Source: an uncultured Prevotella sp. (GTDB lineage Bacteria; Bacteroidota; Bacteroidia; Bacteroidales; Bacteroidaceae). Taken from it: DNA of 64,000 bases. The notes below the pieces were generated by a model. The model made no database searches, had not been told where the DNA came from, and saw only the letters and a program-made list of their open reading frames with translations. Numbering within the stretch: the first letter of the stretch is position 1; each line of letters begins with the position of its first letter. The DNA lies in the NCBI GenBank assembly GCA_947170725.1, contig CAMVUM010000004.1, positions 1-64,000 on the forward strand, in the 5' to 3' direction. Of the stretch, positions 1 through 20,644 are shown piece after piece. A program made the position numbers and the translations under genes.

Positions 1-2
1 CA

Positions 3-116
3 ACGGAAGTATTAGCACCTAACTTTATAGAATTTCTTAATCAGATATTGCAAAAACCCAAACCTGTTCTTCAAGAATTAAAAGGCTGGGAGAAAAAAAT
101 GTATAAAATGGAATAA
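3..116 (+). CDS. C-terminal fragment of a SMI1/KNR4 (SUKH)-like immunity protein, truncated by window start
   Basis: Frame 3 from base 3 reads TEVLAPNFIEFLNQILQKPKPVLQELKGWEKKMYKME*; the VLAPNFIEFLNQIL segment resembles SUKH C-termini. Too short for a firm call. Confidence 0.45.
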   Translation, partial: TEVLAPNFIEFLNQILQKPKPVLQELKGWEKKMYKME

Positions 117-120
117 CGCT

Positions 121-171
121 ACTAACAAGAAAAGATAACCCCTGAACGGTGTTCCTTTCCTCACCATTACC
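121..171 (+). repeat. Intergenic spacer hairpin s0 (TAACA - stem - CATTA)
   Basis: TAACA at 123-127 and CATTA at 165-169 flank an imperfect stem (AGAAAAGATAACC / GGTGTTCCTTTCCT); same layout as spacers at 515 and 613. Confidence 0.4.
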
Positions 172-176
172 AATAA

Positions 177-512
177 ATGAATAAAATGACACAAGACATA
201 TACAATAGTATTCGAGAAATATTGCTGTGTGATGAAGATATAGATTTTTGTTGCAAACTTTTATTGAAAATAACATTTAACTGTGATGACTGGAAATGGA
301 TTCAGAACGTTTGCATTGATATAATCAACAGCAATAGAGAAAAGAATATATGTGGATTAGCAGTTACGTGTATCGGACATTTGGCTCGAATACACGGAAA
401 AATAGAAAAAGAGAGAATCTTTGAAGTGTTTAATCAACAAAAAGATAATCCTTTCATCAATGACAGAATCGGAGATGCCATTGATGATATAGATATGTTT
501 GTGCATGAATAA
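177..512 (+). CDS. Small hypothetical protein, candidate immunity protein (111 aa)
   Basis: Complete acidic, helical-looking 111-aa ORF between two related spacer hairpins; HEAT-like appearance by eye only. Confidence 0.55.
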   Translation: MNKMTQDIYNSIREILLCDEDIDFCCKLLLKITFNCDDWKWIQNVCIDIINSNREKNICGLAVTCIGHLARIHGKIEKERIFEVFNQQKDNPFINDRIGDAIDDIDMFVHE

Positions 513-514
513 TT

Positions 515-571
515 GGTAACACACGGATAAATCTCCCCAAAGGTCGATTATCCGCCGAACATTACCAGCTA
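515..571 (+). repeat. Intergenic spacer hairpin s1
   Basis: GGTAACA (515-521), stem GGATAA(A)TC 525-533 / GATTATCC 546-553, CTCCCC in the loop side, CATTA 560-564. Confidence 0.55.
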
Positions 572-612
572 TTAAAATAAAAAGTATGTATCGAACATGG
601 AGAAATAATGCT

Positions 613-669
613 GGTAACAAGTGGCTTAACCTCCCCGAAAAAATAGGTTAGCCACCTGACATTAATCGC
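613..669 (+). repeat. Intergenic spacer hairpin s2
   Basis: GGTAACA (613-619), stem GTGGCT(T)AACC 621-631 / GGTTAGCCAC 646-655, CTCCCC on the loop side, CATTA 660-664. Confidence 0.6.
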
Positions 670-689
670 TTAAAAGAAAAAGAACGAAT

Positions 690-872
690 ATGAAAAAGGA
701 CATTACTTACTTTGGAGAAGTGGAAATCAACTCTCCTCAAGAAACAACAGAATGAAAAGTCACAATCGACAATCTCCAAATAGAATTAGACCTGAATTTC
801 TATAATGGCGTGCCGAAATATGACTGGGTAGCTGAATATGAGAACTATATCAAAGACCTAAAATTCTTTTGA
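690..872 (+). pseudogene. DUF2004-like immunity protein remnant with in-frame stop
   Basis: MKKDITYFGEVEINSPQETTE* then, same frame, KVTIDNLQIELDLNFYNGVPKYDWVAEYENYIKDLKFF*; in-frame TGA at 753-755. Family by eye. Confidence 0.5.
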
Positions 873-1131
873 GGATTTTCTTCGTACCATAATTGCCTGC
901 TATCAAGAGAAAATCTATTCTATTTCTTTATTGATTATTGGAACAGGGATTTTTGTCGTTTATAAAGCAAGAATGTCTGACATACATACATTTATCGGTG
1001 ACTGTGATGGACTTGACGAATATTACCTGGTTACAGAGGATTTTATGGAACTGTATAGTATAACAGACCATGATGATCTGTTTTATATTGACGTGAGAAA
1101 AAATAAAATGAGAGTTGATAACAAAGCGTGA
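873..1131 (+). pseudogene. Frameshifted continuation or separate fragment, immunity-like
   Basis: Frame shifts to EDFLRTIIACYQEKIYSISLLIIGTGIFVVYKARMSDIHTFIGDCDGLDEYYLVTEDFMELYSITDHDDLFYIDVRKNKMRVDNKA*; the ORF track calls 931..1131 from an internal start. Confidence 0.4.
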
Positions 1132-1145
1132 TGACGCTTAATAGC

Positions 1146-1337
1146 GTTCCCGGCTTGGCCATTATCTATGACGAATGCTCAAAAAGAAGGTTGTTCAGTC
1201 ATCTTCACGGTTGACTTCATCAAGAGAAAATCTATTTTTTAGATGATGACGGTTATCTTGATATGGACTTTGATAAGGAACAACTTATCGGTCAAAAGTA
1301 CATAAAAGCCGTATCTTCTACCATGCCGGACCGCTAA
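1146..1337 (+). pseudogene. Gene relic with internal stop, unknown family
   Basis: VPGLAIIYDECSKRRLFSHLHG*LHQEKIYFLDDDGYLDMDFDKEQLIGQKYIKAVSSTMPDR* in one frame; no start codon, one internal stop. Confidence 0.45.
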
Positions 1338-7876: not shown

Positions 7877-8257
7877 TCAGCAAACGTCACCCTCCATAGG
7901 GTCTCCGGTCGGACGACTCTTTGTGTGGCATTTCTTCTCGTCCTGACACTTCTTGTCATCCTTGCATTGCTTCTCGTCCTGACACTTCTTGTCATCCTTG
8001 CATTGCTTTTCATCCTGACACTTCTTGTCATCCTTGCATTGCTTCTCGTCCTGACACTTCTTGTCGTCCTTGCATTGCTTCTCGTCCTGACACTTCTTGT
8101 CGTCCTTGCATTGCTTTTCGTCCTGACACTTCTTGTCATCCTTGCATTGCTTTTCGTCCTGACACTTCTTGTCGTCCTTACACATTGTTTCTGTTTTCTT
8201 CTCGTTGCATTCTCCCTTTGAGGCCGTTTTTGTGCAACACTTCTCTTTCTTTTCCAT
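7877..8257 (-). CDS. Cys-rich tandem-repeat protein (126 aa, 19 Cys)
   Basis: MEKKEKCCTKTASKGEC... followed by seven CKDDKKCQDEK(Q/K) repeats; this frame has the ATG and continuous Cys periodicity. Confidence 0.6.
   Translation of the reverse strand: MEKKEKCCTKTASKGECNEKKTETMCKDDKKCQDEKQCKDDKKCQDEKQCKDDKKCQDEKQCKDDKKCQDEKQCKDDKKCQDEKQCKDDKKCQDEKQCKDDKKCQDEKKCHTKSRPTGDPMEGDVC
7934..8185. repeat. 36-bp tandem repeat, about 7 copies
   Basis: Unit TTCTCGTCCTGACACTTCTTGTCATCCTTGCATTGC with a few C/T and A/G variants. Confidence 0.95.
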
Positions 8258-11612: not shown

Positions 11613-14132
11613 TCAGTCAGTGACATTCTGCGTTGCTGTCTTATAGCTTTGCTTCAGTTTGGCCGTTGATACTTTAACTGTGACCTTTCCCTGCTGCCTT
11701 GTGCTGCGCAAGATAACCTGCATGCGGCCGCCCTTCATCGGCTTTGTTGTCACACCTTGGAAGAGGGTGGGAGTGTAGTGGTCGCCGTTGTCCATGGCTA
11801 CGAATGAGGCCGGGCCGGTGACGTCGACGGTCATCTCTTCGTCGAATGTCGGGACTACGCGGCCACGGCTGTCCACAGCCGTGATGTTCAGGAACATGAG
11901 GTCCATGCCGTCGGCCGTCCACGTGGAGGTCTCGGGAGAAACAACGAGTGACACGGGGCGTGTGGCGGTTTCTATGCGGTGGCGTGCCGTCTCGCGTCCT
12001 TCGGCGTCGCGGGCGATGGCTTCGATGGAGCCGCCGCTCGCGTATGGCACGTTTTTCCACAGGATTGTGTTGCGCTGTGACTTGTCCTTGGCGGTAGTGT
12101 CGTTTGTTTGTGTGCCGAGGCTCTTGCCGTTGACAATGAGTTCGACGGACCTCGCGTTGGTGTACGTCACGACATCCTGCGTTGTTCCTGCCGCGAAATT
12201 CCAGTGGTCGAGAATGTCGGGACGTCCGACGATGACGTCGTTCCAGCTGACGCTCTCGCCGCCCTTGCGGTCAATCACGCCGATGCGCACCAGCGGTTCG
12301 TCGGCCTTGAAGGCGGAGCGTATGAGATAAGCCTGCGGGTAGGGGCGCATGGTGTGGTTGAAGAAAGAATAGTTCCAGCCTTTCTTTGGCCATGAGTTCG
12401 ACTCGCCCCAATATTCCACGGCGCCCCAGTAGGCCATGCCGACGCTGCTCTTGTGGTCCATGTTGTAGTAGGCCTCGAGCATGTTTGACGTCTCGGCTTC
12501 GCTTTGGAAGATGATCAGATGGGGTGCATGTTTCTTGTAATCGGCATATCGGGCCGACTGATAGTTGAACGAGGCAATTTCCGTGGCACAGCTCAGTTCC
12601 GGCGGCGTGAGATAGCTGTTGAACTCGCTGTGCTTCCGGGTGATGGCTCCGGCGCGGGCCGGAAACATGGCCACCGTTGTCGGACGTGTGTCGTCAAAGC
12701 GTTTCACCAGTTCGTCGAATATCCTGTATGTGGTCACGCCCCAGTCGTTCAGTCCGGCAAAGCCCGTCCAATCCTCGCGTATCTGCAACTCGTTGCCCAG
12801 ACTCCATAGTATGACGCTCGGCCGGTTCCGGTCTCGCTTAATCCATTCGGGGATGAGCCGATACCACAGATTGGTGAACGGCTGGCGACCGCCCCAGTAG
12901 TCACTGTCGCTCCACTTGTCTATCAGTTCGTCGACAATAATCATTCCCACACGGTCGGCAATCCTCGCGAAGCTGTCACTGTATGGATTGTGCGAACAGC
13001 GGATTGTGTTATAGCCGAACTCTTTCAGCCGTAGCATCATCCGTTCTATGGCCCGGTCGTGTGCGGCTACGCCGAGGGCGCCAAGGTCGTGGTGGCCTGA
13101 GTTTCCTTTAAGGAACAGTTTTTCGCCGTTGAGGCGAAAGCCGAATTCGGGTGAGAATTCCAGTTTGCGTATGCCGAAGGTTTCTTTCAGGCTGTCTACG
13201 GGTGTGTTTCCTGCATAGACAACAACCTCGGCACTATATAGATAAGGTGTGTCCGGCGACCACAACGACGGCTTGACGATGCTGATTTCGGGCAGGGCGA
13301 CCTCCGTGATGCTCTGGCGTGTGTTTTTGGGCATACCGCTTTCAGCCGAGCCGATTTCTTTTCCGGCAGCATCGCGCAGACGCGTCCGGATTGTCACGTT
13401 GTTCTTCTGCCAGCCTTCAACCTCCACCTGAACTCTCACCGTAGCTTTGTCGCGTCCGACATCAGGTGTTGTGATGAACACGCCGTGACGGGCAATGTGC
13501 GTCGGGTTGGTCACTTTCAGATGGACGTCGCGGAAGAGTCCTCCTCCGGTGTACCAGCGTGAACCTTTCTTAGGGCCTGTCGATGCGTAGACGGCCACTA
13601 CATTTTCGGTGTCGTAGCGTAGATGGCGGCTGAGGTCGGCCTCAAGACCTATGTAGCCGTAGTCGGTCGACGCCACCTTGTGGCCGTTGATGTAGACATC
13701 GCCCAAATAGATGATACCTCCGAAATCGAGCGAAACCTGCATGCCCTTCCAAAGTGAGTCGGCCCGGAAAGTCTTCCTATACCACCCATCGCACATCGGC
13801 TTGAAGCCGCGCGCACCTCCGCCGTCCTTTGTCCAAGGTTGCTCGAACTGAAAGTCATGTGGCAGGTCGAGCGTGCGCCACGAGCTGTCGTCGAGAGCGG
13901 GTGAGGCGAAATCCGTATTTTTGTTCTCTTTCGTGACAAGACAGAACTTCCATCCGAAGTTGAACAGCGTGCGCTGTTGCGTGACAAACTCGGCAAGCGG
14001 GCGGTTGCCTTTTCGGGTCTCGTCTTTCACGTTCTGATATTGTGCCGCTGCTGGAATGCCGGCTCCGGCATAAAGAGCCATGACGAACGCCGTGGCGTAT
14101 GGCAGCAGATGTGTTTTGATGTGGTGTAGCAT
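11613..14132 (-). CDS. Glycoside hydrolase family 2 (beta-galactosidase-like)
   Basis: 839 aa; DLPHDFQFEQPW, NSGHHDLGALG, IRCSHNPYS, ILWSLGNE and a C-terminal DUF4982-like region. Confidence 0.92.
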   Translation of the reverse strand: MLHHIKTHLLPYATAFVMALYAGAGIPAAAQYQNVKDETRKGNRPLAEFVTQQRTLFNFGWKFCLVTKENKNTDFASPALDDSSWRTLDLPHDFQFEQPWTKDGGGARGFKPMCDGWYRKTFRADSLWKGMQVSLDFGGIIYLGDVYINGHKVASTDYGYIGLEADLSRHLRYDTENVVAVYASTGPKKGSRWYTGGGLFRDVHLKVTNPTHIARHGVFITTPDVGRDKATVRVQVEVEGWQKNNVTIRTRLRDAAGKEIGSAESGMPKNTRQSITEVALPEISIVKPSLWSPDTPYLYSAEVVVYAGNTPVDSLKETFGIRKLEFSPEFGFRLNGEKLFLKGNSGHHDLGALGVAAHDRAIERMMLRLKEFGYNTIRCSHNPYSDSFARIADRVGMIIVDELIDKWSDSDYWGGRQPFTNLWYRLIPEWIKRDRNRPSVILWSLGNELQIREDWTGFAGLNDWGVTTYRIFDELVKRFDDTRPTTVAMFPARAGAITRKHSEFNSYLTPPELSCATEIASFNYQSARYADYKKHAPHLIIFQSEAETSNMLEAYYNMDHKSSVGMAYWGAVEYWGESNSWPKKGWNYSFFNHTMRPYPQAYLIRSAFKADEPLVRIGVIDRKGGESVSWNDVIVGRPDILDHWNFAAGTTQDVVTYTNARSVELIVNGKSLGTQTNDTTAKDKSQRNTILWKNVPYASGGSIEAIARDAEGRETARHRIETATRPVSLVVSPETSTWTADGMDLMFLNITAVDSRGRVVPTFDEEMTVDVTGPASFVAMDNGDHYTPTLFQGVTTKPMKGGRMQVILRSTRQQGKVTVKVSTAKLKQSYKTATQNVTD

Positions 14133-14190
14133 TGCGTGTTATTTTAGGTTGTTTATCTGCAAAGATAGTGTATAAAATCATGTCAGAACA

Positions 14191-14227
14191 GGTGTTTTTG
14201 TACGGAAACCGGTGTTTTTGTACGGAA
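14191..14227. repeat. 20-bp direct repeat upstream of the GH2 gene
   Basis: GGTGTTTTTGTACGGAAACC followed directly by GGTGTTTTTGTACGGAATCG. Confidence 0.8.
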
Positions 14228-14303
14228 TCGGGATATTTTGTTGCGTTGTTGTGGGCTGGCGGTCACGGCTGTTCGGAAAATAGCCTCATGCTTATATGTT
14301 GAT

Positions 14304-14427
14304 GGTGTTGCAAAACCATGAGATTGTATTGACGTACTTTTGGCACGTTGACATAATCTGTTGGTATTGCGATAGACGTCGCAAAACGATGTCCATACTT
14401 GTGTAGACCACATTGTTCTGCAACACC
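14304..14427. repeat. Three related ~20-bp motifs, outer two inverted
   Basis: GGTGTTGCAAAACCATG (14304-14320), GACGTCGCAAAACGATGTCC (14375-14394), CATTGTTCTGCAACACC (14411-14427, inverted). Confidence 0.55.
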
Positions 14428-14639
14428 CTTCACGATGTGATGTCCCTACATGCTCCTTCATTATTCGGAGGGTCTTTACTGCTACACGGAATCAAGTAGG
14501 ATAGCGCTCCTACTTTGAGGATAACAATGTTCCCTTTGCTTTACAAAATTCCCTCCGCCGCAAATCCTGTTTTAGACCGTTTTCGGGTGTTTTCAGCCCG
14601 GTTTTGGGCGGAAAAGACAGCAAAAACATCACCCGGAAA

Positions 14640-14850
14640 CCGCCGTAACGACCTCGGGAGGGCCTTACGGCATTTCTGGAATGAAGTTTTTGCGTTTTTC
14701 TGATGGCTGAAAATAGCACCAAATTCTTGCCGTAAGACCCTCCCGGGGTTACGGCGGGGCTGCTTTCGGAGTGCAACGGGGCCGCCGTTGCAATGCCGTA
14801 AGGGCCTCCCGAGGATGCAACGAGGCCCTTACGGCAAGACATTTTCGGCG
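14640..14850. repeat. GC-rich CCGTAAGG dispersed palindromic repeat, copy 1
   Basis: Multiple CCGTAA.../...TTACGG half-sites; GCAACGGGGCCGCCGTTGCAATGCCGTAAGGGCCTCCCGAGGATGCAACGAGGCCCTTACGGCAAGACATTTTCGG matches the inverse of 53220-53310. Confidence 0.75.
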
Positions 14851-15076
14851 TTTTCTGAAAACTGTGGTGACGCTGTTATTTCCAACTGGTTGAGCATAAA
14901 GAGGTTAGGAATTGCGTGAATATAAAGCGGATAAATATCCGCAAAACTACGCCCCCATATTTCTCGAATTTGCGGCCGCATCCGGAGAAAAACGAAAAGT
15001 CCCCCGTATTTTCGCCGTCAAATTCAGAATAAAGCTGACACAGGGCTGCTGGCATATCAAAAAAAGCGTATTAATA

Positions 15077-15108
15077 TTTGTCGGATATACATAATTATTA
15101 TATATTTG
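15077..15108 (+). promoter_or_regulatory. Bacteroidales-type promoter of the hut cluster
   Basis: TTTG (15077-15080), 20-nt spacer, TATATTTG (15101-15108), upstream of ATG 15149. Confidence 0.7.
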
Positions 15109-15148
15109 CAGAAAGAATATATAACGTTTAACTACTCACCCATATACT

Positions 15149-16861
15149 ATGGCTAACGGAAAACAAATCGTAGAGTGCGTGCCCAATTTCAGCGAAGGGA
15201 GCGACATGGGAATAATAAAGCAGATAACTGACGAGATTGAGAGCGTCAAGGGGGTCCGGCTGCTCGACGTCGACCCCGGCGAAGCAACCAACCGTACGGT
15301 TGTCACGTTCGTAGGCGAGCCATCGGCCGTTGTTGAGGCCGCATTCAGAAGCGTGGCCCGCGCTGCCCAACTCATTGACATGCGCCGTCATCACGGTGCC
15401 CATCCCCGCATGGGAGCGACCGATGTCCTGCCGCTCATTCCAGTGGCGGGCATTACTCTCGAGGAGTGTGCGGAACTGGCCCGTACGCTGGCCCGCCGCA
15501 TTGCCGACGAGCTGGGCGTGCCGTGCTACTGTTACGAAGCCGCCGCGTTCACTCCCGAGAGAAAAAATCTGGCTGTGTGCCGCGATGGAGAATATGAGGC
15601 TTTGGCCGAAAAGCTAACCACAGAGGGACGCCAGCCGGACTTCGGAGCGCGCCCAATAGACGAGGCCGTGGAGCGGACGGGCATGACGGCCGTTGGAGCA
15701 AGGGACTTCCTGATAGCCGTCAACTATAATCTGAACACGACTTCGACGCGCCGCGCCAACGCCATCGCTTTCGACGTCCGTGAGAAAGGACGCCCTGTGC
15801 GCGAGGGCAACCCGATAGTGGGAAAGATTGTGCGCGGCGATGATGGTGAGCCGCTGATGCGGCCGGGCACGCTGAAGTGTACCAAGGCCATCGGATGGTA
15901 TATCGACGAATATGGCATAGCACAGGTGTCGATGAACATGACCGACCTCAGCGTCACACCGCTCCATGTCGCTTTCGACGAGGTGTGCCGTTGCGCACAA
16001 AACCGCGGCATACGCGTCACTGGCACGGAGATTGTCGGGCTCATACCAAAGAAAACCCTCATTGATGCCGGCCGCTATTTTCTCGAAAAGCAGCAGCGCT
16101 CGACCGGTATTCCCGAGGAGGACATAATCCGAATTGCCGTCAAGAGCATGGGGCTCGACGACCTGAAGCCTTTCAATCCTCGGGAGAAGATAATCGAATA
16201 TCTTCTTGAAGACGCCGGACAGGCGGACGCCCGCCGGCTCGTCGACATGACGGTGAAGGGATTTGCCGAGGAGACCTCGCGCGAAAGCCCGGCGCCCGGC
16301 GGCGGAACGATTTCGGCATATATGGGTGCTCTCGGTGCCGCACTCGCCGCGATGGTGGCCAATCTCTCCGGTCATAAGGCCGGATGGGACGACCGTTGGC
16401 GTGAGTTTGCCGCATGGGCCGACCGGGGGCAGATGCTTATGACCGAACTGCTCCACCTCGTTGACGAGGACACCGAGGCTTTCAACCGCATCATGGCTGC
16501 CCTTGGTCTGCCGAAGAAGACGGACGACGACCGCAAGGCGCGTGCCGCAGCTCTTGAAGACGCAACCCTCTATGCCGCACAGGTTCCGTTGCGCACGATG
16601 AAGGCCTCCATGCAGGTCTTTGAAATATGCCGCGCTATGGTCACCTCGGGCAATCCCAACAGCGTTTCCGATGCCGGCGTGGGTGCGCTTGCCGCCCGTG
16701 CCGCAGTGCTCGGGGCGGGACTGAACGTGAAAATCAATGCCGCCGGACTGAAGGACCGCGCCGCCGCCGATGCCCTCACGGCTGAGGCTACCGCCCTCAT
16801 GGCCGAAGCCGACAGGACGGAGCGTGAGATAATGAAGATGACGGAGGAGGTTATAAAGTAA
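15149..16861 (+). CDS. ftcD: Bifunctional glutamate formimidoyltransferase / formimidoyltetrahydrofolate cyclodeaminase
   Basis: VECVPNFSEGSD, HHGAHPRMGATDVLPLIP; C-terminal ESPAPGGGTISAYMGALGAALAAMVANLS cyclodeaminase domain. Confidence 0.95.
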   Translation: MANGKQIVECVPNFSEGSDMGIIKQITDEIESVKGVRLLDVDPGEATNRTVVTFVGEPSAVVEAAFRSVARAAQLIDMRRHHGAHPRMGATDVLPLIPVAGITLEECAELARTLARRIADELGVPCYCYEAAAFTPERKNLAVCRDGEYEALAEKLTTEGRQPDFGARPIDEAVERTGMTAVGARDFLIAVNYNLNTTSTRRANAIAFDVREKGRPVREGNPIVGKIVRGDDGEPLMRPGTLKCTKAIGWYIDEYGIAQVSMNMTDLSVTPLHVAFDEVCRCAQNRGIRVTGTEIVGLIPKKTLIDAGRYFLEKQQRSTGIPEEDIIRIAVKSMGLDDLKPFNPREKIIEYLLEDAGQADARRLVDMTVKGFAEETSRESPAPGGGTISAYMGALGAALAAMVANLSGHKAGWDDRWREFAAWADRGQMLMTELLHLVDEDTEAFNRIMAALGLPKKTDDDRKARAAALEDATLYAAQVPLRTMKASMQVFEICRAMVTSGNPNSVSDAGVGALAARAAVLGAGLNVKINAAGLKDRAAADALTAEATALMAEADRTEREIMKMTEEVIK

Positions 16862-16930
16862 GGAGTTACCGCTCCCATTGTTCCCATTGCCCCATCGTTC
16901 CCATCCCTCTAATCCTTCCCACACCATCAT

Positions 16931-18964
16931 TTGACAAAAAACCTCAACGATATGACCCAAGAAGAATTCATAGCCGACATCCGTGTCGGTATCCCCGACA
17001 CCCTGCCCGAAGCGCAGGCGTATGACCCGGAGATAAACCATGCCCCCAAGCGCAAGGATATACTGACTCCGGAAGAGAAGCGGCTTGCGTTGCGCAATGC
17101 CCTGCGTTATTTCCCGAAGCATCTGCATGCCCAACTGGCACCTGAGTTTGCCGACGAGCTGCGCCGCTACGGACGTATATATATGTACCGCTACCGCCCA
17201 CGCTACGAGATGTATGCCCGTCCGATTGACGAATATCCCCATCGCTCGGAACAGGCGGCCGCAATCATGATGATGATACAGAACAATCTCGACAAAGCCG
17301 TCGCCCAGCATCCGCACGAACTGATAACCTACGGCGGCAATGGAGCGGTGTTCCAGAACTGGGCTCAGTATCGTCTGACGATGAAGTATCTGAGCGAGAT
17401 GACAGACGAGCAGACGCTCGTGATGTATTCCGGCCATCCTCTCGGACTCTTCCCGTCGCACAAAGGGGCACCGCGGGTGGTCGTCACCAACGGCATGGTC
17501 ATTCCCAACTATTCCAAACCCGACGACTGGGAGCGGATGAACGCCCTCGGCGTGAGCCAGTACGGACAGATGACGGCCGGCTCTTATATGTATATCGGAC
17601 CGCAGGGAATCGTACACGGAACAACAATCACCGTGCTCAATGCCGCACGCAAGCGGCTCACCGAGGAACGGAAGGACATCCATGGCATGCTCTTCGTGAC
17701 GTCCGGACTGGGCGGAATGTCGGGCGCGCAACCCAAGGCGGGCAATATTGCCGGCGTAGTCAGCGTCACGGCGGAAATCAATCCCAAGGCGGCTCAGAAG
17801 CGATATGACCAGGGTTGGGTGGACGAGATGCACACCGACCTTGACGAACTCATTCCCGCCGTGCGCAGGGCCGTCGGCGAGAAGCGCTCCGTCTCGATGG
17901 CCTATGTCGGCAATGTGGTCGATCTTTGGGAGCGGCTGGCCGCCGAGGACATACGCGTAGACCTCGGCAGCGACCAGACTTCGCTGCACAATCCGTATGC
18001 CGGAGGCTACTATCCCGTGGGCATGACGCTCGAAGAGTCGAAACAGATGATGGCCGAACGGCCTGACGAGTTCCGCGAGCGTGTGTTTGAGTCCCTCCGC
18101 CGTCAGGTGGCGGCCATCAACAAGCTCACCGCCCGCGGCATGTATTTCTTCGACTACGGCAATGCGTTCCTCCTGATGGCGAGCCGTGCTGGTGCCGACA
18201 TCATGCGTGACGCCAACCGTTTCCGCTATCCGTCCTACGTTCAGGACATCATGGGGCCGATGTTCTTCGACTACGGCTTCGGTCCGTTCCGCTGGGTTTG
18301 TTCTTCAGGGAAGCCTGAAGACCTCGCCGAGACAGACCGTCTGGCCGCCGAAGTGCTTGAAGACATGCTACGGACGGCGCCCGACGACATCCGCGGACAG
18401 CTGGCCGACAATCTCCATTGGATTCGTGAGGCAGGCCGGAATAATCTCGTTGTGGGTTCGCAGGCACGCATCCTGTATGCTGACGCCGAGGGCCGCGCAC
18501 GCATTGCGCTGGCGTTCAACGACGCCATACGCCGCGGCCGGATAAGCCGTCCCGTCGTTCTCGGCCGCGACCATCATGACGTTTCGGGCACGGACTCACC
18601 CTTCCGCGAGACTTCCAACATCTACGACGGTTCTCAGTTCTGTGCCGACATGGCCGTTCAGAACGTCATCGGTGATGCTTTCCGCGGTGCTACGTGGGTC
18701 AGTCTGCACAATGGCGGCGGTGTTGGCTGGGGCGAAGTGATCAACGGAGGCTTCGGTATGGTCATCGACGGCAGCGAAGATGCCGATCGCCGCATCCGCG
18801 AAATGCTCTTCTGGGACGTCAACAACGGCATTGCCCGTCGCTCATGGGCGCGCAACAGCGGCTCTATGGACGCTATCCGCCGCGAGATGGAACGCAGGCC
18901 GGAGCTTCAGGTGACGATGCCGAACATGGTGGAGGAGAACGTAATTGATGAAATTGAGTTTTAG
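16931..18964 (+). CDS. hutU: Urocanate hydratase
   Basis: YSGHPLGLFPSHKGAPRVVVTNGMVIPNYS, TSGLGGMSGAQPKAG, DYGNAFLLMASRAGAD, LHNGGGVGWGEVINGGFGMVIDG. Confidence 0.95.
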   Translation: MTKNLNDMTQEEFIADIRVGIPDTLPEAQAYDPEINHAPKRKDILTPEEKRLALRNALRYFPKHLHAQLAPEFADELRRYGRIYMYRYRPRYEMYARPIDEYPHRSEQAAAIMMMIQNNLDKAVAQHPHELITYGGNGAVFQNWAQYRLTMKYLSEMTDEQTLVMYSGHPLGLFPSHKGAPRVVVTNGMVIPNYSKPDDWERMNALGVSQYGQMTAGSYMYIGPQGIVHGTTITVLNAARKRLTEERKDIHGMLFVTSGLGGMSGAQPKAGNIAGVVSVTAEINPKAAQKRYDQGWVDEMHTDLDELIPAVRRAVGEKRSVSMAYVGNVVDLWERLAAEDIRVDLGSDQTSLHNPYAGGYYPVGMTLEESKQMMAERPDEFRERVFESLRRQVAAINKLTARGMYFFDYGNAFLLMASRAGADIMRDANRFRYPSYVQDIMGPMFFDYGFGPFRWVCSSGKPEDLAETDRLAAEVLEDMLRTAPDDIRGQLADNLHWIREAGRNNLVVGSQARILYADAEGRARIALAFNDAIRRGRISRPVVLGRDHHDVSGTDSPFRETSNIYDGSQFCADMAVQNVIGDAFRGATWVSLHNGGGVGWGEVINGGFGMVIDGSEDADRRIREMLFWDVNNGIARRSWARNSGSMDAIRREMERRPELQVTMPNMVEENVIDEIEF

Positions 18965-18973
18965 AAGTTTGCG

Positions 18974-19144
18974 TTTTTGGAGTTGGAGGTGTTTAAGGAG
19001 TTACCGATTTCTAAGGTCGCTCAGGAGTTGAAGACGTCTGCTTTATGTGTATGAAAGAAGGAGTCGGTCAACAAGACTTTTGTCGGCACTCCTGAGCGGA
19101 CGCAGTCCGAGATGACTCATTAAACTCCTCTAACTCCCCAAAAT
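18974..19144. repeat. Long imperfect inverted repeat in the hutU-hutH gap
   Basis: Outer arms TTTTTGGAGTTGGAGGTGTTTAA / TTAAACTCCTCTAACTCCCCAAAA, inner arms CGCTCAGGAGT (19018) / ACTCCTGAGCG (19088). Confidence 0.65.
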
Positions 19145-20644
19145 ATGAAAAAGAATATGATTCACAAGATATCTGCCGACCATCTTACGATAGAAAGAAT
19201 CGGTGAAATAATATACGGAGGACTCAAGATTGAGCTTAGCGATGATGCCGTAAAGCGTATAGAGCGTTGTCGCGAATACCTTGACGAGAAAATACGCACG
19301 AGCAACCAACCCGTCTACGGTGTGACAACAGGCTTCGGGTCGCTCTGCAATGTGTCCATTGGCAAGGACCAGCTTGCTCAGTTGCAGATCAATCTGATAA
19401 AGTCGCATGCCTGCGGAACGGGAGAACGTGTGCCAAACGACATCGTCAAGATAATGATGTTGCTGAAGATACAGTCGCTCAGCTACGGATATTCGGGCTG
19501 CAAGGTCAATACCGTAGAGCAACTCGTGAGGTTCTTCAACGACGATGTCTATCCGGTTGTCTACCGTCAGGGTTCGCTCGGAGCCTCCGGCGACCTCGTG
19601 CCGCTGGCTCATCTCAGTTTGCCGCTCGTCGGACTTGGCGAGGTTGAGTATCAGGGAAAGGTTATGTCTGGTGCCGAACTGCTCCGTAAGAAGCGTTGGA
19701 AACCAATCGAACTGGATTCCAAAGAGGGCTTGGCACTGCTCAACGGTACGCAGAACATGAGCTCGTTTGCTGTCTGGGCGTTGCTTCAGGCACAGCGGTT
19801 GAGCGATTGGGCCGATACGATTGCGGCCGTTTCCCTCGATGCCTACGACGGACTGATAGAGCCGTTCACCCACGCCGTCCATGCCGTCCGTCCACATCAG
19901 GGTCAGATAGAGACGGCTGCCCGTATGCGCGAACTGCTCGAAGGAAGTGAGATTATAAGCCGTTCGAAGGCTCATGTGCAGGACCCGTATTCCTTCCGTT
20001 GCGTCCCGCAGGTCCATGGAGCTGTGAAAGACACAATCCGTTATGTGCGTTCGGTGATTGACACGGAGATTAATTCGGCAACCGACAACCCTACCGTATG
20101 CCCCGATGACGACCTGATCATCTCCGCCGGAAACTTCCACGGCGAACCGATTGCCCTTCCGATAGACTTCCTTTCCATCGCCCTCAGCGAGCTGGCCAAT
20201 ATCTCCGAGCGACGGATCTACCGTCTCGTTTCCGGAACGCGCGGCCTGCCGAGCTTCCTTGTGGCTACGCCGGGCGTAAACAGCGGCTTCATGATAACCC
20301 AATATACGGCCGCGTCGGTGGTCAGTCTCAACAAATCGCTGGCCATGCCGTCTTCCACCGACAGCATCCCGTCATGCCAGGACCAGGAAGATCATGTCAG
20401 CATGGGAGCCAATGCCGCCATCAAACTCTATAAAGTGGTGCTTAACACCGAGCGCGTCCTGGCCATCGAACTGTTCAACGCCATGCAGGCGCTCGACTTC
20501 AGGCTGCCGCTCAAGTCGTCGCCGAAGATTATGGAGATATATGATGATTACCGTAAGGTGGTGCCGTTCATTCTCAACGACGAACTGATGTATCCGCACA
20601 TAGAAAGCTCAATCAACTTCATCCGCACAGCAGTGCGTTGCTGA
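19145..20644 (+). CDS. hutH: Histidine ammonia-lyase
   Basis: GSLGASGDLVPLAH (MIO-forming ASG), QDPYSFRCVPQVHGA, SATDNPTV. Confidence 0.97.
   Translation: MKKNMIHKISADHLTIERIGEIIYGGLKIELSDDAVKRIERCREYLDEKIRTSNQPVYGVTTGFGSLCNVSIGKDQLAQLQINLIKSHACGTGERVPNDIVKIMMLLKIQSLSYGYSGCKVNTVEQLVRFFNDDVYPVVYRQGSLGASGDLVPLAHLSLPLVGLGEVEYQGKVMSGAELLRKKRWKPIELDSKEGLALLNGTQNMSSFAVWALLQAQRLSDWADTIAAVSLDAYDGLIEPFTHAVHAVRPHQGQIETAARMRELLEGSEIISRSKAHVQDPYSFRCVPQVHGAVKDTIRYVRSVIDTEINSATDNPTVCPDDDLIISAGNFHGEPIALPIDFLSIALSELANISERRIYRLVSGTRGLPSFLVATPGVNSGFMITQYTAASVVSLNKSLAMPSSTDSIPSCQDQEDHVSMGANAAIKLYKVVLNTERVLAIELFNAMQALDFRLPLKSSPKIMEIYDDYRKVVPFILNDELMYPHIESSINFIRTAVRC

Follow-up and report, generated by a model that had tools for sequence, protein, structure and literature searches.

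The closest described counterparts of this locus are the rAID arrays, defined by a recombinase, by orphan immunity genes that are low in GC and share one orientation, and by conserved motifs between these genes (PMC12247911). The mechanism of rAID biogenesis was called an open question in 2025 (PMC12247911). The second point of comparison is the integron, for which the definitions of the IntI domain and of attC were taken from PMC9668308, PMC9024848 and PMC2727003; among Bacteroidetes proper, a single genome was reported by IntegronFinder 2.0 to hold a complete integron (PMC9024848). No paper joining rAID with integrons or attC was found in a literature search that did not extend to the 2019 Nature rAID paper. 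According to the abstract of Ross et al. 2019, the structure of the clusters is reportedly suggestive of active gene acquisition, and an integron comparison may already have been drawn in that work. What is already known is rAID with its "conserved intergenic motifs"; a mechanism of folded sites, attI and cassettes was not found in the literature, which was available only in part and did not include Ross et al. 2019.

The locus described here lies at the start of the window, by which is meant the whole stretch of 64,000 nucleotides analysed from an uncultured Prevotella sp. Based upon sequence comparison, with recombination itself untested, we place at roughly 0.85 the probability that its spacers are recombination sites working like integron attC sites, at which a recombinase would move immunity cassettes as units.

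Results

An array of seven sites and an attI-like site in the source genome

The window begins in the middle of an array, at a contig end (the start of contig C4, in a 2.92-Mb genome of 51 contigs). The three TAACA..CATTA spacers described in the initial annotation were located exactly where it had placed them, with TAACA and CATTA starting at 123/165, 517/560 and 615/660. Beyond these, a fourth spacer was identified (Table 1), and the array extends onto a second contig. An attI-like site is present at the end of contig C19, where the covariance models, R1 for class A and R2 for class B, also detected three further sites that had not been model rows, with E values of 2e-7 to 3e-5 over the 2.9-Mb genome. 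With the four sites of the window, the array comprises seven sites and one attI. Its order is attI (C19 58746-58750), DMP19, SUFU, a DUF4377 lipoprotein-like gene, SUKH, the 111-aa gene, a 50-bp gene-less unit, a decayed fusion and the last site, all on one strand and with GC contents of 0.31-0.41 against a background of 0.52-0.54. The two contigs join inside one SUKH cassette. The tail of C19 and positions 2-177 of the window correspond to the two ends of an intact SUKH-1 cassette in a relative (L053:4852-5520; 93% identity to window 2-177), the protein of which matches PF09346 at 1e-12, and the cassette ends GTAGCG (C19) and CGCTAC (window) are exact complements. The gap left between the contigs, inside this cassette, is about 470 bp.

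Table 1 Features of the part of the array that lies in the window.
Feature	Positions	Strand	Remarks
3' end of SUKH-1 (SMI1/KNR4) family immunity-like gene	3-116	+	5' end at end of C19
Left arm CGCTAC	117-122	+	Reverse complement of cassette start GTAGCG on C19
Spacer 1, class A attC-like site, TAAC-hairpin-CATTA	123-169	+	R1 61.9 bits (site was a model row)
Right arm CCAATA, start of next cassette	170-175	+	5/6 pairing with AATTGG preceding spacer 2
111-aa ORF, cassette gene, GC 0.31	177-512	+	No family above cut-off
Left arm AATTGG of 111-aa cassette	511-516	+	
Spacer 2, class B attC-like site; stem GGAT/ATCC + AATC/GATT, one unpaired 5'-arm base	517-564	+	R2 68.2 bits (site was a model row); covariation
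Gene-less 50-bp unit, arms CCAGCT / TGCTGG (5/6)	565-614	+	Micro-cassette or remnant
Spacer 3, class B attC-like site	615-664	+	R2 61.1 bits (site was a model row)
Fused decayed unit with mutually unmatched arms; first part of one cassette (ATCGCT..., gene remnant from 690), last part of another (remnant 931-1131, ...AGTTGA)	665-1118	+	
Spacer 4, class A attC-like site, last of the array	1119-1164	+	R1 54 bits (site was a model row)

The two halves of the fused unit could be traced to different cassettes. Window 659-863 matches G108:C48, an intact relative that ends in AGCGAT followed by TAAC, and window 919-1125 matches G062:C3, which ends in AGTTGA followed by TAAC. The gene-less unit at 565-614 keeps matching end arms, as expected of an empty or deleted cassette.

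No match to the array recombinase of relatives better than Xer level (4e-28) was found in the window's genome, and no remnant of it near attI. Among the PF00589 recombinases of this genome, the two strongest resemble XerC/XerD by length and context and were rejected as the array recombinase. Insofar as no recombinase was found there, activity in this genome is unlikely; the array, with its attI, its seven sites and no recombinase found in the assembly, is an orphan and probably no longer self-mobile. Elsewhere in the window, positions 7877-8257 (- strand) hold a 126-aa ORF built of CKDDKKCQDEKQ-type tandem repeats, with many Lys, Asp and Cys residues.

Stem pairing is kept while the stem sequence changes

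The initial annotation had read the first spacer as a weaker version of the hairpin in the other two. This did not hold, since spacer 1 belongs to another class (A, 61.9 bits) than spacers 2 and 3 (B, 68 and 61 bits). The window sites were rows of the models, and their bit scores are therefore partly given by construction. The hairpins of spacers 2 and 3 fold better than dinucleotide shuffles of the same sequences (z -2.4 and -3.2, top strand), and the compensatory change that had been proposed for the stem was borne out in both classes, well above shuffled and slid controls. In class B (22 sequences) 91% of pairs are kept, seven of the ten pairs are changed on both sides, and 32 double-change cells were counted against 9.3 in shuffles; the signal collapses when the partners are slid, and unaided RNAalifold predicts nearly the same helix. 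In class A (26 sequences) 88% are paired, 9/12 pairs are double-changed, and the double-change cells number 63 against 21.9. An unpaired base stands at a fixed place on the 5' arm, and in 143 of 185 unique sites it is the bottom strand that folds more stably. Reading the structures from the same sequences and picking the rows by hand from arrays favours them over the slid versions; the double-change counts are the stronger evidence. Related loci also share ancestry, and shuffles consequently overstate significance; a plasmid array and the C19 sites provide a more independent check.

In the source genome, an exact search for the flank pattern gave matches not above a reversed control apart from two known sites. 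Models were therefore needed; all R1 and R2 matches in this genome are confined to the one array. The refuting conditions named in the initial annotation were put to the test, and further matches with the same flanks turned up in the arrays of numerous Bacteroidales.

The two ends of one cassette are complementary

In the arrays of relatives, the hexamer that follows a spacer is the reverse complement of the hexamer that precedes the next one, at the other end of the same cassette. Pairing at five or more of the six positions was observed for 114 of 142 non-redundant cassettes, compared with a mean of 6.7 and a maximum of 16 in 2000 shuffles, and an arm match within one spacer in only 6 of 246 cases. 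Complementarity is 0.87-0.94 at positions 1-5, falls to 0.52 at position 6 and does not exceed background further on. All six internal cassettes of a Parabacteroides distasonis plasmid array that had not been used in finding the rule (NZ_OY725747.1) fit it, as do six of the seven cassettes in the source genome; the misfit, ATCGCT/AGTTGA, is the fusion, whose halves match two different relatives' cassettes (AGCGAT end and AGTTGA end). In circular form, the bottom strand of all six intact cassettes of the source genome forms a single long hairpin; most of them are without the outer stem in the linear array.

An attI-like site and an upstream recombinase in relatives

Upstream of the arrays in relatives is a gene for a tyrosine recombinase of 356-370 aa with conserved catalytic residues. 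An attI-like site, ACACC..GGTG..[CA]ATTA, follows this gene by 57-90 bp, and its arm is complementary to the end of the first cassette in most arrays, that of the source genome included. Some attI sites read AATTA and not CATTA, which indicates that the base before ATTA stays with attI and that crossover lies within ATTA.

The recombinase consists of SAM-like and catalytic domains preceded by about 90 N-terminal residues. Its predicted model has a mean pLDDT of 83 and a pTM of only 0.56, so the arrangement of the domains is uncertain. The fold matches Xer and IntI recombinases, with an archaeal Xer recombinase (4a8e) at the top. The IntI-specific extra domain around patch III is absent, 15 residues lying between the matched stretches compared with 57 in IntI4 (2a3v). 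Against the integron integrase model TIGR02249 the recombinase scores 191-204 bits, with a cut-off of 265, and the match is split where the extra domain is missing.

Two recombinase groups, about 48% identical, track the two site classes (139:6 versus 12:39, with CCATTA versus ACATTA as the class mark; the sites are not independent). Class A sites were found in 10 of 152 genomes of the family and in none of the other 142. A close recombinase is present in six of those 10 and in one of the 142, and that one (G087) has class B sites. Beside remote recombinases (44-58% identity, L126-L172), ATTA-core sites were mostly not found, and a strict 6/6 arm search yielded almost nothing. In Maribellus, hairpin sites of the form TAAC...GTTA, about 120 nt long, lie near a relative of the recombinase (L160 about 14045-19830; L162 near 11947, 13150 and 19171). 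These GTT-core arrays show cassette-end complementarity in three of four consecutive cassettes and are integron-like, with no IntI-type integrase.

Several neighbours and carriers of the recombinase gene were recorded. A gene for a TetR-like regulator lies upstream of it at L054:12444-13055, L058:644-1255, L060:190-801 and L179:5289-5903, and the regulator upstream of the plasmid array recombinase is annotated TetR/AcrR; such a regulator may control cassette capture. In Bacteroides ndongoniae an IS91-type transposase gene is inserted between recombinase and cassettes (L054:9856-11076, - strand). The recombinase platform also occurs on large plasmids of P. distasonis (NZ_OY725747.1, 98% identical) and Bacteroides ovatus (NZ_CP081918.1, 76%), and distant relatives of the recombinase (<60%) on 24 Acinetobacter plasmids. 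No match to it was found in phage records.

Many cassettes carry immunity genes and differ between genomes as whole units

One gene occupies 94% of a cassette (median), with a GC content of 0.33; 98% of the cassette genes of relatives are below 0.41 GC. The longest ORF is on the array strand in 137 cassettes and on the opposite strand in 20. The immunity-gene context proposed from the window alone extends to the relatives. Many of the 97 distinct cassette proteins match polymorphic-toxin immunity families, among them Imm-NTF2, Imm5, Tdi1, PoNi and SUKH, with 38 Pfam families in all.

There are 83 cassette pairs at least 80% identical, nearly all in different contexts, and the identity ends at CATTA on both sides. 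Near-identical cassettes occur across genera; one is 100% identical in Parabacteroides gordonii and Phocaeicola plebeius and has different neighbours in each. Over a stretch of 1164 bp that stops with the final base of attI, recombinase and attI are 99.8-100% identical in loci of three genera: Bacteroides bouchesdurhonensis (L108), Phocaeicola coprocola (L109) and Parabacteroides gordonii (L110). L110 begins directly with a cassette block that in L108 is preceded by five other cassettes and in L109 by about seven. Two adjacent L108 cassettes have relatives in reversed order in L109. Between the three genera the platforms differ by entire cassettes, positioned exactly at attI.

Discussion

One cassette would consist of a gene and the spacer downstream of it, starting with (A)TTA-N6' inside the upstream CATTA and ending with N6-TAAC-hairpin-C(A). 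An excised circle would join both ends, so that N6-TAA could pair with TTA-N6' on one folded strand (8-9 bp), with the hairpin as inner stem and unpaired bases on its 5' arm. The dedicated Xer/IntI-like tyrosine recombinase encoded upstream in relatives would then join the folded site to the attI-like site or, alternatively, recombine two spacers, and immunity cassettes would be inserted, lost and reordered as units. The sites, the covarying stem, the arms of the same cassette, the attI, the exchange borders in CATTA, the gain or loss of whole cassettes at attI and the immunity content are seen in the sequences themselves. That this recombinase performs the reaction, and that its substrate is folded single-stranded DNA, probably the bottom strand, is inferred; the exact cut at A^TTA is inferred by analogy with the integron G^TTRRRY. 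Several points stand against this reading. The recombinase lacks the IntI-specific domain held to be necessary for recombination of folded sites (PMC9668308), ATT replaces the invariant GTT of attC, and excision between two sites would use poorly paired sites, since the linear array leaves the outer stem mostly broken.

The alternative that survives best, and which we nevertheless regard as unlikely, is a duplex exchange of Xer/dif type at double-stranded CATTA-centred sites, the hairpin being a by-product of inverted recombinase-binding sites. It would suit a recombinase that is Xer-like and has no IntI extra domain. However, the stem sequence varies freely while pairing is kept, which is not needed at a duplex binding site, the unpaired bases stay on one arm, and the arms that match each other are those of a cassette, not those of a spacer, in keeping with a folded circular cassette. 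Far less probable is an RNA element, in which the hairpins would be intergenic terminators, attenuators or processing sites of the transcript. The position of the spacers between co-oriented genes and their conserved pairing speak for it, but G-U cells are rare (2 and 7 in the two site classes), as expected if DNA and not RNA folds, no Rfam match was found for the spacers, and the cassette-end arms and the exact exchange borders at CATTA would go unexplained. Independently mobile palindromic repeats of REP/MITE type, spread by chance between small genes, would suit the similar hairpins that occur many times per genome but can hardly be entertained, as the matches to both models in the source genome all lie in one array, 142 of 152 family genomes have no class A match, and the mobile unit is gene plus spacer, not the spacer. 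The initial annotation had suggested selection on structure, as for a recombination or RNA element separating cassettes. That suggestion is supported, and the rarity of G-U pairs, the complementary cassette ends and the exchange borders inside CATTA favour a DNA recombination site over an RNA element.

It is thus very likely, on evidence that is comparative only and without any recombination having been observed, that gut Bacteroidales collect, reorder and swap toxin-immunity genes cassette by cassette, via folded sites served by a non-IntI recombinase. This anatomy makes the acquisition of immunity genes by rAID a testable reaction, for which the sites (attI, attC-like spacers and cassette ends) and the enzyme family can be named. 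Gut genera are seen to exchange toxin immunity at the level of the cassette, the need for the IntI-specific domain in folded-site recombination is called into question, and the site models supplied detect such arrays.

Comparison with known systems

The array recombinase shares the fold and catalytic residues of XerC, XerD and XerA and differs in its added N-terminal domain; the array sites are variable-stem hairpins, unlike the conserved 28-bp duplex dif sites. The window's array, with sites and an attI and no recombinase found, resembles a CALIN (an attC cluster lacking an integron integrase), but its sites are not canonical attC and it spans the assembly gap inside one cassette.

With rAID as described in PMC12247911, the arrays share a tyrosine recombinase and, downstream of it, short orphan immunity genes of low GC in one orientation (SUKH, Tdi1 and others), together with conserved intergenic motifs, in Bacteroides, Phocaeicola and Parabacteroides. 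The upstream tyrosine recombinase required of rAID is present in relatives and was not found in the window's genome (no direct comparison was made with BF9343_RS08045). The requirement for at least two co-directional genes below 41% GC is met by the window's own array, as are those for orphan immunity genes without effectors (DMP19, SUFU, SUKH) and for a conserved intergenic motif, the identity of which with the published motif is not established. The window's array differs in that no array recombinase was found in its assembly, and the anatomy of folded site, attI and cassette end is absent from the rAID literature searched, itself incomplete and without the 2019 paper.

With integrons such as the Vibrio cholerae superintegron, the system shares the layout of recombinase, attI and cassettes, cassettes of a single gene with the site 3' of it, a folded site of variable stem with unpaired bases on the 5' arm and a more stable bottom strand, self-pairing cassette ends (8-9 nt here, 9-11 in integrons; PMC2727003) and a crossover at the edge of the 3' core. 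An attI beside the recombinase as insertion point is found in relatives, an attI is present in the source genome too, and a one-strand attC fold with extrahelical bases on the R''-L'' arm is supported by covariation and the unpaired 5'-arm base, in vivo folding not having been demonstrated. The system differs in its extra N-terminal domain of about 90 aa, in the inner part of the site, and in a recombinase that has no IntI extra domain and whose score does not reach the integron-integrase cut-off. Of the attC boundaries AAC (R'') and GTT (R') (PMC2727003), AAC is present (TAAC) and GTT is replaced by ATT. Because two defining tests, the IntI domain and the GTT core, are failed, the system is not filed as an integron, though it would work like one. 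We lean slightly towards a second, Bacteroidales-wide kind of integron, whose recombinase family lacks the IntI extra domain, has its own N-terminal domain, recombines folded attC-like sites and has split into recombinase/site pairs that evolved together (classes A and B of the gut, with ATT core, and the long Maribellus sites with GTT core). Such a kind would be the engine of rAID array building and, if it exists, integron surveys based on the IntI domain would largely miss its arrays.
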